DNA of 20,133 bases. Origin: a virus. Below, one piece after another: positions 6,623 through 15,637 of the stretch. Position 1 is the first letter of the stretch. Every line of letters begins with the position of its first letter. Location of the stretch: the IMG/VR virus record IMGVR_UViG_3300045019_000156, positions 1 to 20,133 of that record; one strand, 5' to 3'. A program made the translations under genes and the position numbers. The notes under the pieces were generated by a model, which was given only the letters and a program-made list of their open reading frames with translations, ran no database searches and was not told where the DNA came from.

Positions 6623-6849
6623 TGAATGGCCTCGTCGACATTCGACTCGACGTCTTCCAGCGCGCCCGCAGCCTCTTCGAGCGCGTTGGCCGCCTCGTCG
6701 AGGCGCTGGCCGAGCTCCGACTCCTGCAAGCCCAGCGAGAGGTTGTCGAACGCCGCGCGCTCCTCCTCTCCGCACATGGAGATGATTTCCCTGGCCTCCG
6801 AAAGGAGGTCCAGGGCGCGACGTAGTTCCTTCCGGCGAGCCGCGTTCAT
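6619..6849 (-). CDS. Hypothetical acidic coiled-coil protein
   Basis: A 76-residue acidic protein that is almost entirely helical. The C-terminal half, with repeated LDEAANALEEAAGALEDVE-type heptads, is a likely coiled coil. It starts in a TAATG overlap with the upstream gene and ends in an ATGA overlap with the small membrane protein. The function is unknown. Confidence 0.68.
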   Translation of the reverse strand: MNAARRKELRRALDLLSEAREIISMCGEEERAAFDNLSLGLQESELGQRLDEAANALEEAAGALEDVESNVDEAIQ

Positions 6850-7322
6850 TACGCGGCCCGCTGGACGGGGAGCATCAGCAACTCGGCCAGGGCGCGGCGC
6901 GCTTCCACGCCGTCCTCGCCGATGACGCCCGCGAGCGCTTCCAGGGCCACGCCGACCTCATGCGTGCAGATTGGGCGGTTTTCGTCGGCGAAGCCGCGAG
7001 CGTAGGCCTTGCGGGCGAGTTCGGCCTCGTAGGCGTAGACGTCGGCCCGCTGAATGTTGGCGATGGCCGTCATGAACCGGCCGCGCGACGACGCCGCAAA
7101 GCGCTGGCTGATCGTCATGGCGCGCTCAGCGGCAGCTTTGATCTCGTCTTCGGTGCGGGGCTCGTAGAGGCCGCCGGTCAGGCCGCTCCAGGCGACGCCG
7201 CGACCGCGACGGGCGAGGTCTTCGTTGTGCTCGGCTCGGGCCGCTTCCTTGGCGCGCTCCCGGGCCAGGAAGTGGGTCTCAAAGGGGATGGGGTCGTTCG
7301 CCGGGGTGGGCGGGATATGCAT
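6849..7322 (-). CDS. First gene of the leftward early operon, hypothetical
   Basis: A 157-residue hydrophilic, helical protein with no recognised domain. Notable segments are the proline-rich start (MHIPPTPANDPIPFE), a basic stretch of alternating Arg and Ala around residues 20-50, and a C-terminal helical region ending in LAELLMLPVQRAA. The in-frame extension to 7529 is rejected because it runs through the operators and promoter. ATG at 7322 has a GGAGGG about 7 nt upstream and lies roughly 22 nt from the predicted transcription start. As the first gene after a repressor-controlled promoter it is the analogue of the first N-side gene of lambdoid phages, but it shows no antiterminator-like arginine motif that I would trust. 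Confidence 0.72.
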   Translation of the reverse strand: MHIPPTPANDPIPFETHFLARERAKEAARAEHNEDLARRGRGVAWSGLTGGLYEPRTEDEIKAAAERAMTISQRFAASSRGRFMTAIANIQRADVYAYEAELARKAYARGFADENRPICTHEVGVALEALAGVIGEDGVEARRALAELLMLPVQRAA

Positions 7323-7350: not shown

Positions 7351-7379
7351 ACGTTACCGACGGTAATGTTTGGGTGCAA
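7351..7379 (-). promoter_or_regulatory. Leftward early promoter (PL-like)
   Basis: On the minus strand, TTGCAC (7379-7374) and TAACGT (7356-7351) are separated by 17 nt. The -10 box is built from the right half of an operator (7354-7366), and a second operator lies just upstream of the -35 box. The predicted start falls near 7344, about 22 nt before the ATG at 7322, which has a strong ribosome binding site. The 51-bp block 7352-7402 aligns without gaps to the cro promoter block 8489-8539. Confidence 0.65.
7354..7366. promoter_or_regulatory. Operator OL1, TTACCGACGGTAA
   Basis: A perfect 5-bp dyad (TTACC/GGTAA) around GAC. It extends to a 19-bp imperfect palindrome (7351-7369) with one mismatched pair. 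It overlaps the spacer and -10 box of the leftward promoter, so bound repressor would block the polymerase. Confidence 0.72.
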
Positions 7380-7387
7380 GCGGAAAA

Positions 7388-7400
7388 TTACCGGTGGTAA
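7388..7400. promoter_or_regulatory. Operator OL2, TTACCGGTGGTAA
   Basis: A perfect TTACC/GGTAA dyad whose centre is 34 bp from OL1. It sits upstream of the leftward -35 box. The same 34-bp spacing recurs in the right operator cluster, which suggests cooperative binding of repressor dimers about three helical turns apart. Confidence 0.72.
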
Positions 7401-7454
7401 CGCATCGGTCGTCGGAGATGCGTCAGAAACGGTCGTGTGAGTGCGCGAGTGCGG

Positions 7455-7485
7455 TTGACTCGTTAACGAACGGCCGCGCTTAGAT
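7455..7485 (+). promoter_or_regulatory. Possible rightward promoter for the 90-aa gene
   Basis: TTGACTC at 7455-7461 followed after 16 nt by GCTTAGAT (7478-7485) resembles the alphaproteobacterial housekeeping pattern (TTGAC...GCTANAWC), although the spacer is somewhat long. It lies about 32 nt before the ATG at 7517 and outside the operators, so it may be active in the lysogen. Confidence 0.4.
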
Positions 7486-7516
7486 GTTCTTGTATTGTTC
7501 TCATTTTGGGGAAGGC

Positions 7517-7789
7517 ATGGGACATCCAATCAGGCTCCATGAGCCCGAGCGCGCGGCGCACCTGATCACTATCTATGCTGTTCAAACCTATTGGTTTGAC
7601 GGGCGGCGAGCTGCGCGGGGGGCGCTTAAGGAGTGCGCGACCGAAGAGAAGGCAATCGCGCTGGGGCGTCGCCTCGCGCGTCGGCACTACGCCGTTCTTG
7701 CTTTCTCAGTGGTGGGAAATCCGGAGGCGGATTACTGGGCCGCGCCCCGCATCCTCGAAGCGCACGGCCCGGCGCCGCTATTTGGATAG
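7517..7789 (+). CDS. Hypothetical protein between the operator clusters
   Basis: A 90-residue protein read opposite to its neighbours on both sides. It has a basic middle (ALGRRLARRHYAVLAFSVVG) and an aromatic-rich start (YAVQTYWFDGRRAARGA), and resembles small Arc-like or nucleotide-handling folds only in length. An in-frame ATG exists upstream at 7484, but ATG at 7517 is preceded by GGGGAAGG about 1-8 nt upstream and is the better start. It occupies the immunity region between the leftward promoter and the repressor, where lambdoid phages carry rex-type exclusion genes. That location is the only clue to its role: a gene expressible during lysogeny. Confidence 0.55.
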   Translation: MGHPIRLHEPERAAHLITIYAVQTYWFDGRRAARGALKECATEEKAIALGRRLARRHYAVLAFSVVGNPEADYWAAPRILEAHGPAPLFG

Positions 7790-7847
7790 GAGGCGAAGTT
7801 GTATCAGGCCAACCGAAACCAGATTGCGAACGAGCGCCGTTGCCCAA

Positions 7848-8099
7848 TCATGGCGAAGAAATCTGTTCAGCGTGCTCTAGAAGAGCTTGAGCAAGCGCAC
7901 GCGCCATCTCAGGAGTCAGGGCCATCTGGAAGCGTTCGTCGTCCATCGCCGCCCCCTTCAGGCGCTCGCTAAAGCCAACGACTACGCCAATAAAGCGGTC
8001 GCCGAAAGTTGCTGACGTGAAGTCGTGAACCGCGGCAAAGGACATGTCACCCAAATCGTTGAAGAGCCATTCAACGTCGGGCCGGGTGGGCTTGGTCAT
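7848..8099 (-). CDS. Hypothetical protein co-transcribed with the repressor
   Basis: An 83-residue protein whose ATG is separated from the repressor stop by no intervening base, so it is made from the same leftward transcript and is probably expressed in the lysogen. The sequence has a strand DRFIGVVVGFSER and a C-terminal helix ARALAQALLEHAEQI. I do not recognise a domain. Being coupled to the repressor suggests a lysogeny-maintenance or exclusion function, as inference. It is convergent with the 90-residue gene, with 58 nt between them and no obvious hairpin terminator there. Confidence 0.62.
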   Translation of the reverse strand: MTKPTRPDVEWLFNDLGDMSFAAVHDFTSATFGDRFIGVVVGFSERLKGAAMDDERFQMALTPEMARALAQALLEHAEQISSP

Positions 8100-8465
8100 C
8101 TAGCTACCAGTGCGCAGAAGCTGTTCGAGGGCGGCCACAAAAGCTTCCTGGCGTTCGGCGGGTTGCGCGTCGACTAGGCGTTTCACCCGATCACCGGGCG
8201 TCTCTTCTAGCCAAGGCTTGCCTTGTCGATTGAGGAGCCATTCCCAACGGACCCCGAACCGGCTGCCAAAATGCACGGCGCGGTCATAGGTCAGGGGAAT
8301 GTGCTTAGACGCTTCGGGTGGGCGCTCGTACGCCGCGTAGGTGCCTGGCTCAAGGCCGAGCGCATCGGCGGCGGCCTTGGCCGTTCCATGTTTTCGCAAC
8401 CGAGCCCAGCGCAGCCGGTCCCAGCTATTTTCTAACTGCGTCCAAGTGAGGTCATTGTGGTCCAC
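8100..8465 (-). CDS. CI-like lysogeny repressor (HTH)
   Basis: A small repressor of about 121 residues. An XRE-type HTH is visible around RLRWARLRKHGTAKAAADAL and GLEPGTYAAYERPP, followed by FGSRFGVRWEWLLNRQGKPW, a pattern seen in many short phage repressors. The C-terminal part is helical; no S24/LexA peptidase domain is present, so it is unlikely to be inactivated by RecA-stimulated self-cleavage. The open frame runs to a GTG at 8531, but that start would place coding sequence across three operators; GTG at 8465 lies just past them and is preferred, with TTG at 8474 as the alternative. No clear ribosome binding site is visible. It is the likely reader of the TTACC-N3-GGTAA operators. Confidence 0.75.
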   Translation of the reverse strand: MDHNDLTWTQLENSWDRLRWARLRKHGTAKAAADALGLEPGTYAAYERPPEASKHIPLTYDRAVHFGSRFGVRWEWLLNRQGKPWLEETPGDRVKRLVDAQPAERQEAFVAALEQLLRTGS

Positions 8466-8475
8466 AGACCACAAG

Positions 8476-8488
8476 TTACCGGCGGTGA
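8476..8488. promoter_or_regulatory. Operator OR3, degenerate copy
   Basis: TTACCGGCGGTGA matches the operator with one change in the right arm. It is centred 15 bp from OR2, between the inferred -10 of the repressor promoter and the repressor start, where it could mediate autorepression. Confidence 0.55.
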
Positions 8489-8518
8489 CGTTACCGAGCG
8501 TAATATTCCTATTGCCAA
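8489..8518 (-). promoter_or_regulatory. Possible repressor promoter (PRM-like)
   Basis: On the minus strand, TTGGCA (8518-8513) and TAACGT (8494-8489) are spaced 19 nt apart, longer than ideal. The -10 again comes from an operator half-site, as at the other two promoters. Transcription would start near 8482, about 17 nt before GTG 8465. The weak spacing could fit a promoter that needs activation by repressor bound at a neighbouring site. Confidence 0.4.
8491..8503. promoter_or_regulatory. Operator OR2
   Basis: TTACCGAGCGTAA, one mismatch in the right arm. It is the equivalent of OL2: upstream of the cro -35 box and centred 34 bp from OR1. Confidence 0.62.
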
Positions 8519-8540
8519 TGGATATTACCACGGGTAACGA
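8512..8540 (+). promoter_or_regulatory. Rightward early promoter (PR-like)
   Basis: TTGCCA (8512-8517), a 17-nt spacer and TAACGA (8535-8540), with the -10 inside operator OR1. The geometry is identical to the leftward promoter. The predicted transcription start (about 8547) is within a few bases of the cro-like ATG at 8549. Confidence 0.62.
8525..8537. promoter_or_regulatory. Operator OR1, TTACCACGGGTAA
   Basis: A perfect TTACC/GGTAA dyad overlapping the -10 box of the rightward promoter. It is the equivalent of OL1. Confidence 0.7.
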
Positions 8541-8548
8541 TAACTCCC

Positions 8549-8776
8549 ATGGTTCGCACCCCTGCCCAGATCATCGACGAAAAAGGCGGCCCTGCAGCGT
8601 TCGCGGAAAAGGTCGGCGTGAAGCCCTCCCATGCGAGGGTCTGGAAGCACCGCAATCAGTTCCCTCGCCGTTACTGGCCGGAAATCAGCGCAGGTCACGC
8701 TGACCTCAACCAAAAGGTCCTTCTCGCCGCAGAGCGAGCGGCTGAGCGTCTGACCATCAACAAGAAGGCCGCCTGA
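8549..8776 (+). CDS. Cro-like regulator
   Basis: A 75-residue HTH protein divergent from the repressor. The motif IIDEKGGPAAFAEKVGVKPS then HARVWKHRNQFPRRYWPEI is the compact Cro/C1-type fold seen in many alphaproteobacterial prophages; the rest is a short basic helical tail. It would bind the same operators to shut off the repressor and tune early transcription. No Shine-Dalgarno sequence precedes the ATG (only AACTCCC), and the predicted mRNA start almost coincides with the ATG, so leaderless translation is likely. Confidence 0.8.
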   Translation: MVRTPAQIIDEKGGPAAFAEKVGVKPSHARVWKHRNQFPRRYWPEISAGHADLNQKVLLAAERAAERLTINKKAA

Positions 8777-9534: not shown

Positions 9535-9607
9535 CACCCTCGGCGACGCCGGGCGGCGTCTCCGCTTCTGGGCTCAACAGCAAATAGAGAACGGCCGTCA
9601 TGGCTGA
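9431..9607 (+). CDS. Small membrane protein overlapping its neighbour
   Basis: A 58-residue frame starting inside the preceding gene (104-nt overlap). It has a basic N-terminus, one transmembrane segment at about residues 16-35 (WWLCRLIFLGLVASLGAAIS) and a polar tail. Its stop overlaps the ATG of the TetR-like gene by 8 nt, which supports real translation coupled to that gene. Its start has only a weak ribosome binding site. No function is assigned. Confidence 0.5.
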   Translation: MSARSGRPRSVGTSAWWLCRLIFLGLVASLGAAISTLGDAGRRLRFWAQQQIENGRHG

Positions 9608-9890
9608 AAGCAAGCGTCAGATTCAGAAGGCCAGCACCCGCGCGCGGGTCGTGCAAGCCGCCACCGTCCAATTCCAGGCCGAGGGCTATGACGGAACCAA
9701 CCTGCGGGACATCGCCAAGATGGCCGGCGTCTCCACCGGCGCCATCTTCGCCAACTTCCGCGACAAGGAGGCGCTGTATCGCGAGGTGTTCGGCCACGCG
9801 CCCTACAGTGCCGAGCAGGGCCGCGCAATGGCGAGCGCCCTCAAGAGCCTGGGCGTCGACCCGGTCCTGATCCTGGCCGCTGCCGCCTGA
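9600..9890 (+). CDS. TetR-type DNA-binding domain without ligand domain
   Basis: A 96-residue protein. Residues 12-65 are a textbook TetR N-terminal domain: RARVVQAATVQFQAEGYDGT, LRDIAKMAGVSTGAIFANF, RDKEALYREVF. The usual C-terminal ligand-binding and dimerisation domain of about 120 residues is absent, and the protein ends soon after in a short Ala-rich helix. It therefore cannot sense a ligand in the usual way and may be a constitutive DNA binder, a dominant-negative competitor or a phage regulator that dimerises differently. The frame ends cleanly at a TGA and the next gene has its own strong ribosome binding site, so this looks like a settled short gene and not a frameshift. Confidence 0.8.
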   Translation: MAESKRQIQKASTRARVVQAATVQFQAEGYDGTNLRDIAKMAGVSTGAIFANFRDKEALYREVFGHAPYSAEQGRAMASALKSLGVDPVLILAAAA

Positions 9891-13382: not shown

Positions 13383-15637
13383 CCGACACGCCCGAAAAGG
13401 CCGAGGTCGAGCTGCCGCCTGGGTACGAAGACGTCGAGAGCTTCCTCAAGGAGGCCCGCGAGCGCTTCACCGAAGGCGAGAGCGCTGATCAGGAGAACCG
13501 CGAAGCCGCCCTCGACGATCTGAAGTTCCTGACCGGCGAGGGCCAATGGGACCCCCAGGTGAAGGCGGCGCGGCAACTGAAGGGGCGGCCCTGCCTTGTC
13601 ATCAACGACCTACCGCAATTCGTCGGCCAGGTCATCGGCGACACCCGCACCAACCGCCCGTCTATCAAGGTGCGGCCGGTCGAGGATGCGGACCAAGAGC
13701 TTGCCGACATCCGCGCCGGCCTGATCCGATCGATTGAGAACCTGTCGAACGCGACCCAGGTTTACGCCCTTGCCGGCGAGGATCAGGTGTCGTGCGGCAT
13801 CGGCCATTTCCGGATCGGCCTGGAGTACACGAACGACGACGCTTTCGACCAAGACATCCGCATTCGGCACATCCCGAACCCGTTCGCCGTGGTCTGGGAC
13901 CCCTACAGCACCGACCAGACCGGCGCGGACGCCAATTTCGTGTTCGTGGTCGATCAGGTCGACAAGAAGTCGTTCAAGGCCGCCTATCCGGACGCGATCA
14001 CGTCCGAACTGACTGTGGCGACCGGCGCGAGCGAATGGGTCATGGCCGGCGGCGTCCGCGTGACTGAGTATTGGCTTATGCAGTCGGTGGCGCGGACCAT
14101 TGCGCTTGTTCAGGAGACGCCCGAGGCCGCGCCGAAGGTGGTCGACATCACCGGCCGCGAGGAGGAAGTGGCCTCGTTCGTCGTCACCGGCGCCGACGGT
14201 CGCCCGCGGGTGCGGGAAGTCCAGCGCCGCGAAGCCTGGATGTACCTCATTACCGGCGCGGAGGTGCTGGACGGCCCTTACAAGCTGCCCATCAGCCGCG
14301 TCCCGATCTTCAAAGTAACGGGCCGGGAAATCCGCGTCGCTGATCGCCGCTACCGCTTCGGCCTCATCAGGTTCGCCAAGGACCCCATGAGGATGAAGAA
14401 CGTTTGGCGCTCGTCGGCGGCCGAATGGCTGGCAATGTCGCCGAAGCAGCAATGGCTCGCCCACGCTGCGAACCCCGACGACGTCGAGTCTCTGCGGAAC
14501 GCCCATCGCTCGGGCGACACCGTGTTGCCGTACACCGGTGTGAACCCGCCGACCCGGCTAGATCCTCCCAGCCCGCCCGTTGCGCTCCTTCAGGAAGCGC
14601 AGCTCAGCGCGCAGGACATCAAGGACGTGACGGGGCTGCATGACGCCTCGCTCGGCATGAAGTCGAACGAGACCAGCGGCAAGGCGATCATCGCGCGCGA
14701 GCGGCAAGGCGACGTCGCCACGTTCATGTATCACGACAACCTCAACCACTCGATTGAGGAGTGCGGGAAGGTCTGCAACGAGCTGATCCCCGTGGCCTTC
14801 GACACCCCGCGCACCCTGCGCGTTCTGGGGGCGGACGAGGCGTCGAAGATCATGCGCGTGAACGACCCGAAGGCCGATGGCGGCTTGGTCGACATCACCA
14901 AGGGCAAGTACGACGTCGTCGTTGAGACTGGACCCAGCTACGCGACCAAGCGACTCGAAACCGCCGACAGCATGACCAACGCCCTGCAGGCCATGCCCAA
15001 GCTCGGCGAGGTCGCTGCCGACCTCTATGTGCAGGCCCAGGACTGGCCCAACGCCGACATCCTCGCCAAGCGCCTCAAGAAGGCGATGCCGCCCGAGATC
15101 GTCAACGATGACGACGACGAGCCCACGCCCGAACAGGCCCAGGCCAAGGCCCAGGCCGAGCAGATGGCGGCGCAGCAAGCCCAGATGCAGCAGCAGGCCG
15201 CCCAGATGGCCCAGGAGCAGGCGAAACTGGCGCTAGAGGAGCAGCGGGCCAAGACCCGCCAGGCGGTCGCGCAGGCCGATAAGGCTGTGGCGGACGCCGA
15301 GAAGGCCAAGTATTCCGACGATTGGAACCGCTCGCGCAGCACCTACGAGAGCGACCGCAACTACCTGACCGGCCGCTTCGACCGATCGACTGACGACCTC
15401 TTCCGGCTCACGGCGCTCGGCCAGAACGCGGCGAGTTCGTCGGCCAACGCCGCTCTCGGGCAAGGCGCGACGGAATCGAACCTGCTGGAAGGCATCGGCG
15501 ACACGACCGCCAGCAACGCGCTTGCGCAAGGTGCGATCTGGAGCGGCGTCTTCGGCGACCTGGCCGGGACCGCGGCCGGCGTCATCAACGGGTGGGGCAA
15601 GGGCTCCACCGCTCCCAAGTCTAAGGCTCAACGCTGA
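13370..15637 (+). CDS. P22-type portal protein with an extra C-terminal domain
   Basis: A 755-residue protein. Residues 1-585 follow the P22-like portal layout: FLKEARERF start, WDPQVKAARQLKGRPCLVIN, QFVGQVIGDTRTNRPSIKV, HIPNPFAVVWDPYSTD, and later DVTGLHDASLGMKSNETSGK, then AIIARERQGDVATFMYHDNL. About residues 585-647 form a Gln/Ala-rich coiled coil, as in the portal barrel. From Y648 on the sequence changes to SDDWNRSRSTYESDRNYL, LTALGQNAASSSANAALG and a Gly/Ala/Asn-rich, weakly hydrophobic end. That pattern is familiar from P22 gp7-like DNA-transfer proteins, not from portals. I infer a fusion of a portal with the tail end of an ejection protein. GGAG precedes the ATG by 7 nt. Confidence 0.85.
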   Translation: MDGLTDTPEKAEVELPPGYEDVESFLKEARERFTEGESADQENREAALDDLKFLTGEGQWDPQVKAARQLKGRPCLVINDLPQFVGQVIGDTRTNRPSIKVRPVEDADQELADIRAGLIRSIENLSNATQVYALAGEDQVSCGIGHFRIGLEYTNDDAFDQDIRIRHIPNPFAVVWDPYSTDQTGADANFVFVVDQVDKKSFKAAYPDAITSELTVATGASEWVMAGGVRVTEYWLMQSVARTIALVQETPEAAPKVVDITGREEEVASFVVTGADGRPRVREVQRREAWMYLITGAEVLDGPYKLPISRVPIFKVTGREIRVADRRYRFGLIRFAKDPMRMKNVWRSSAAEWLAMSPKQQWLAHAANPDDVESLRNAHRSGDTVLPYTGVNPPTRLDPPSPPVALLQEAQLSAQDIKDVTGLHDASLGMKSNETSGKAIIARERQGDVATFMYHDNLNHSIEECGKVCNELIPVAFDTPRTLRVLGADEASKIMRVNDPKADGGLVDITKGKYDVVVETGPSYATKRLETADSMTNALQAMPKLGEVAADLYVQAQDWPNADILAKRLKKAMPPEIVNDDDDEPTPEQAQAKAQAEQMAAQQAQMQQQAAQMAQEQAKLALEEQRAKTRQAVAQADKAVADAEKAKYSDDWNRSRSTYESDRNYLTGRFDRSTDDLFRLTALGQNAASSSANAALGQGATESNLLEGIGDTTASNALAQGAIWSGVFGDLAGTAAGVINGWGKGSTAPKSKAQR

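Follow-up and report, generated by a model that had tools for sequence, protein, structure and literature searches.

A probable lambda-like immunity switch with five operators in a temperate phage fragment

We analysed the temperate phage fragment IMGVR_UViG_3300045019_000156, a 20,133-base IMG/VR record taken entire (the window; GC 0.67), which carries an integrase gene at the left and a P22-like portal gene (E 9e-171) and a terminase-like gene at the right. The window is part of a temperate phage genome, and the region around its repressor gene is the immunity on/off switch. The switch is very probably a lambda-like one with five operators that works as modelled below; its layout, the conservation of that layout and the fold class of the repressor are described here.

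Five probable operators at two early promoters

The features of the switch are as follows.

6849-7322, minus strand: 157-aa gene that opens the left operon, without a family match; ATG at 7322, SD GGAGGG at 7335-7330
7351-7379, minus strand: PL core promoter as read from the sequence; -35 TTGCAC (7379-7374), N17, -10 TAACGT (7356-7351)
7354-7366, no strand: operator OL1, TTACCGACGGTAA, covering parts of the PL spacer and -10
7388-7400, no strand: operator OL2, TTACCGGTGGTAA, 5′ of the PL -35 and 34 bp from OL1
8100-8465, minus strand: repressor, 121 aa, lambda-repressor-like HTH, GTG start, without a peptidase domain
8476-8488, no strand: operator O3, TTACCGGCGGTGA, 15 bp from O2
8491-8503, no strand: operator O2, TTACCGAGCGTAA, over the PRM -35 region
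8512-8540, plus strand: PR core promoter; -35 TTGCCA (8512-8517), N17, -10 TAACGA (8535-8540)
8525-8537, no strand: operator O1, TTACCACGGGTAA, 34 bp from O2 and overlapping the PR spacer and -10
8549-8776, plus strand: Cro-like protein of 75 aa with an HTH and a weak match to YdaS, probably leaderless

The five palindromes give CG-TTACC-N3-GGTAA-CG as a candidate operator consensus. When up to two mismatches were allowed, TTACC-N3-GGTAA matched the window six times against 1.67 expected, a count reached in 0 of 100 shuffles. Five of these matches (0-1 mismatch) are the sites at 7354, 7388, 8476, 8491 and 8525; the sixth, at 14895 with two mismatches, lies inside the portal gene and is chance-like. 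A sequence-only reading of this DNA had placed the operators 34 bp apart at both promoters, which is what we find at the left and at the right, and had noted a fifth copy at 8476-8488, which is indeed present 15 bp from the operator at 8491.

Structure prediction gave the repressor an all-helical HTH fold (pLDDT 91). When compared with solved folds, the model had weak matches (best E 0.03) that were for the most part lambda-repressor-like HTH proteins, among them SinR, lambda, 434 and a Salmonella temperate-phage repressor, and the HTH_3 Pfam match of the protein was below cut-off. Judged by the predicted fold, the window repressor is of the XRE/lambda-repressor-like HTH class. The Pfam search of its 121 aa gave no S24 peptidase match, and hence no RecA-cleavable C-terminal domain; the protein is short and without a peptidase domain, in line with the short, non-LexA-type repressor suggested by the sequence-only reading. 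An antirepressor is one possibility for the inducer of this phage. The Cro-like protein matched YdaS (PF15943) with E 4.2e-5 and 23.7 bits, under the gathering cut-off of 30.

Two relatives of the repressor are built differently. One family member (L085:2989-3690) keeps an S24 peptidase domain, with operator type and spacing as in the family, whereas the window repressor is without it; forms with and without the peptidase therefore share this operator kind. In L018 (3982-4703) the repressor carries a fused HicB-like domain (Pfam DUF1902, E 1e-5), and a gene for a HicA toxin (E 3e-8) comes next, right before the PL module, so that the repressor of this prophage may double as an antitoxin. Small look-alike genes diverge from the PL module at 7484-7789 (plus strand) in the window, L020:676-912 and L022:1426-1770; that of the window has no family match, and genes of this kind may represent a shared lysogenic gene. 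A further ORF of the window (9600-9890, plus strand; 96 aa) has the N-terminal DNA-binding domain of TetR in full (Pfam E 2e-14) but no ligand domain.

Likeness of the two promoters

The stretches 7402-7352 (minus strand) and 8489-8539 (plus strand) align without gaps and are identical at 34 of 51 positions, exactly as claimed beforehand. The identities are divided between the operator columns (19/26) and the columns outside them (15/25), and the next-best unrelated 51-base stretch in the whole window, on both strands, reached at most 26/51. This had been taken to mean that the two promoters are copies of one module. The 51-bp likeness stands, yet it comes mainly from shared operator specificity and does not demonstrate duplication. 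We consider true duplication of PL and PR, by recent copying or gene conversion, to be unlikely; the alternative is selection that keeps two promoters similar. The 15 identical bases outside the operators would fit duplication, as would the observation that PL resembles the PR of its own phage more than a random partner, also when the flanks are left out (7.4 versus 6.4 of 18, p 0.015). However, among phages with the operator type of the window this excess is slight and for the most part non-significant (p between 0.07 and 0.29 for the columns outside the operator), most of the common bases are functional (TTGC and the operator flank), and the excess likeness of same-phage pairs arises mostly via the operator flank.

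Conserved geometry in relatives

Searches of viral contigs, genomes and annotated phages with the window repressor as a single sequence yielded no relatives. A signature of 19 fixed bases, in which TTG lies between two TTAC-N5-GTAA sites spaced by 34 bp, matched 17 viral stretches, where fewer than one was expected by an estimate from base counts. Three of the matches (L013, L018 and L022) have true repressor relatives (E 6e-20 to 1e-21) and Cro relatives, and alignments built on these three yielded more relatives, found by the repressor protein only and independently of the operators. Some matches to the operator pattern (L004, L008, L010, L015, L016) were discarded as chance or other palindromes. 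We also left unused the weak matches from a search of 385 genomes in the class of the Gluconobacter genome, which lay in longer open frames and carried no signature, and rejected a Rhizobium phage ‘repressor protein C’, which had a 36% match to L081 only and, by eye, no TTAC operators in the same place.

We applied the window geometry, in which O1 precedes the repressor start by 72 bases, O2 by 38 and O3 by 23, to 18 protein-found loci. It outscored all other positions of the locus in 10 of the 18, several loci being closely related; at L057 just 2 of 12361 positions scored as well. In an unbiased scan of 24 non-redundant phages that allowed any spacing, O2 and O3 were 15 bp apart in 23. O1 and O2 were 33-35 bp apart in 20 phages as scored and 43-45 bp apart in three, and in the remaining one, L055, 38 and 33 bp tied. 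A second operator pair was present elsewhere in 15/24 phages, always at 33-35 bp and at no other spacing, and shuffled loci contained zero such pairs. Two dozen related phages share this rigid arrangement, and the relatives identified through the repressor protein have paired operators, promoter cores and operator-embedded -10 boxes at constant distances.

The promoter core of L018 and L039 stays with O1, and it is O2 that is shifted. The jump of the O1-O2 distance from 34 to 44-45 bp, with nothing clear between, corresponds to one turn of DNA and points to repressor dimers that touch each other on one particular side of the helix. The held-out loci L079-L086 fitted the geometry broadly. Three repressor relatives (L040, L043, L052) were without the window layout, and the half-sites of L048, L051 and the H-type loci (below) were degenerate or differently arranged.

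Promoters and message starts

At both PL and PR the downstream operator occupies the 17-bp spacer and starts the -10, and PL of the relatives has the same order of TTG, 10 bp and operator as in the window. The sequence-only reading had the -10 embedded in the operator; this holds for TAA, which is inside the 13-bp operator, but not for CG, which is outside and belongs to the conserved operator flank.

The candidate -10 of the repressor promoter PRM is TAACTT (8478-8473, minus strand), consisting of the end of O3 plus CTT. The proposed promoter has no TTG or -35 consensus, and O2 occupies that region with its centre at about -32 from the inferred start. A leftward TTGGCA (8518-8513) overlaps the PR -35 but would require a 19-bp spacer. 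In 22/24 phages a TANNNT hexamer starts where O3 ends and is followed 6-8 nt later by the repressor start; its final T lies outside the 13-bp operator. The cro ATG follows the O1 -10 by 6-9 nt in all 19 phages checked. In the window, the repressor GTG is 7 nt past the O3 -10 and the cro ATG is 8 nt past the PR -10. With start codons 6-9 nt past the -10 boxes, both the repressor and the cro messages are probably leaderless. The left operon differs: in L018, L022 and the window an ordinary leader with GGAG or a similar sequence precedes its ATG, and the same probably holds for L013.

Operator flank and recognition helix

In ten phages whose repressor has G before TY in the recognition helix, the base after GTAA was C 51 times, T 15 times and never G. 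With N, D or E in that place (five phages) the flank was mostly G (30/42), with L037 as an exception. Held-out L080 (D) and L085 (N) had mostly G flanks and held-out L086 (G) mostly C flanks, as predicted; L037 and L079 (N before TY, T/C flank) do not fit, the held-out L079 having T. V-type repressors (L055, L057) pair with ATAC/CTAC half-sites. Fisher's test gave p 0.004 per phage, with too few tree-corrected pairs or independent changes for proof. The operators had been said to form a complete repressor-operator code. They do recur with a fixed layout, but ‘complete’ overstates a match between helix and flank that is suggestive. In phages with H-type repressors (xxHTYRAYE; L081, L082, L083, L084, L048), O1 is CGTAAC-N5-GTAACG near the repressor start, a direct rather than inverted GTAAC repeat with a 10-bp period.

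The flank also bears on which protein the operators serve. It is very unlikely, in our view, that the palindromes are bound chiefly by the Cro-like protein, or by both proteins to the same degree, and that the product of 8100-8465 acts elsewhere or with a partner. Cro of PY54 and of phiKO2 binds one OR site (PMC4488713, PMC4997575), YdaS and PaaR2 bind the same region (PMC8630535), and Cro and the layout occur together in the window, L013, L018 and L022, all of which would suit Cro sites. On the other hand, the flank type follows the recognition helix of the repressor, the left pair is distant from cro, as expected of a prophage repressor, and phiKO2 Cro does not bind OL (PMC4997575). Short palindromes are frequent by chance, but the idea that these repeats arose by chance, or that such a palindrome is common in this DNA and forms no regulatory layout, has practically nothing left to it and is refuted by the comparative data, with no pairs in shuffled loci, near-identical spacing in 24 phages and sites fixed relative to start codons.

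Model of the switch

Returning to the repressor-operated switch, we infer operator binding, cooperativity, transcript starts and the role of Cro from these patterns. A short dimeric XRE repressor (8100-8465, minus strand) would occupy the five palindromes. A dimer on O1 or OL1 would cover the spacer and -10 of PR or PL and exclude RNA polymerase, and dimers on O2 and OL2, 34 bp upstream, would reinforce repression by protein contact on a fixed helix face. O3 overlies the putative -10 of the repressor itself and may limit repressor synthesis. Cro (8549-8776), presumably the first to be made upon infection or induction, is a probable competitor for this region. The messages for repressor and Cro would begin at or beside their start codons, and the leader of the left operon would supply a ribosome-binding site.

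We found no description of this switch family in the open-licence papers searched. A bolder proposal combines several points: that this is an undescribed, widespread family in which an operator pair 34 bp apart, or 44 bp with one turn more, surrounds the promoter, both regulator messages are leaderless, a repressor promoter lacking a -35 is driven or blocked by the repressor at the -35 place, and the residue before TY sets the flank (G to C, D/E to G) as a readable code. Taken jointly, these points are tentative and we rather doubt that all of them hold.

The approximately 24 diverged repressor-operator pairs with one geometry constitute a natural test set for change in phage immunity specificity, suited to tests of helical phasing between operators and of leaderless cro and repressor behaviour in a switch. 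TTAC-N5-GTAA-N8-TTG-N10-TTAC-N5-GTAA provides a simple DNA signature for locating immunity regions in unannotated prophages.

Comparison with known systems

In lambda, the repressor gene lies between PL and PR, there are three right operators and six operators overall, and the repressor message is leaderless; an operator overlaps the PR spacer and -10, and OR2 is at -42 relative to PRM. The window resembles lambda OR/OL in that its repressor and cro genes diverge from an intervening set of related operators and a second group lies at the leftward promoter. It also shares the repressor gene between PL and PR, the operator overlapping the PR spacer and -10 and a leaderless-looking repressor message. 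In contrast to lambda, it has five operators, these are 13-17 bp TTAC palindromes spaced by 34 bp (O1-O2) and 15 bp (O2-O3), the repressor is without a peptidase domain, cro also looks leaderless, and O2 lies over the PRM -35 region at about -32.

In function, the window switch most resembles N15/phiKO2, PY54 and CP-933P PaaR2/YdaS. The immB region of N15/phiKO2 (CB repressor, Cro) has three OR and two OL operators and a repressor without self-cleavage residues (PMC4997575). The window likewise has three plus two operators and a repressor without a peptidase, a likeness by description; the N15/phiKO2 operators, however, are 16 bp with a T-A-N10-T-A motif in place of TTACC-N3-GGTAA, and OL controls repA. 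PY54 has leaderless cI and cro messages by RACE (PMC4488713), comparable to the leaderless-looking repressor and cro of the window, whereas just one operator (OR3) is recognised in its immunity region. CP-933P has a short, leaderless XRE repressor, PaaR2, with YdaS as the Cro counterpart and operators over the PRM, PR and PL promoters (PMC8630535), similar to the short XRE repressor and weakly YdaS-like Cro of the window. Unlike those of the window, its operators are equally spaced 18-bp GTTTAGTAA palindromes, and its repressor operon has toxin-antitoxin genes, an arrangement that is absent from the window but related to that of L018.

Acetobacteraceae prophages (L005, L006, L007, L009, L028 of Gluconobacter and L034 of Asaia) have two perfect TTACCGCCGGTAA sites, spaced by 34 bp, that flank TTG. 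Their PL has two operators and their PR one, versus three in the window, and their repressor is remote from that of the window (hhalign probability 95, 17% identity). At L006:10607-10840 and L005:4290-4515, the single operator covers the -10 of cro, whose ATG follows after 6 nt, and cro looks leaderless here too. Since such promoter-operator units occur with a remote repressor, the design is wider than the window family. The window system is lambda-like and of a known kind, a new lineage that combines known traits with its own operators and a fixed geometry.
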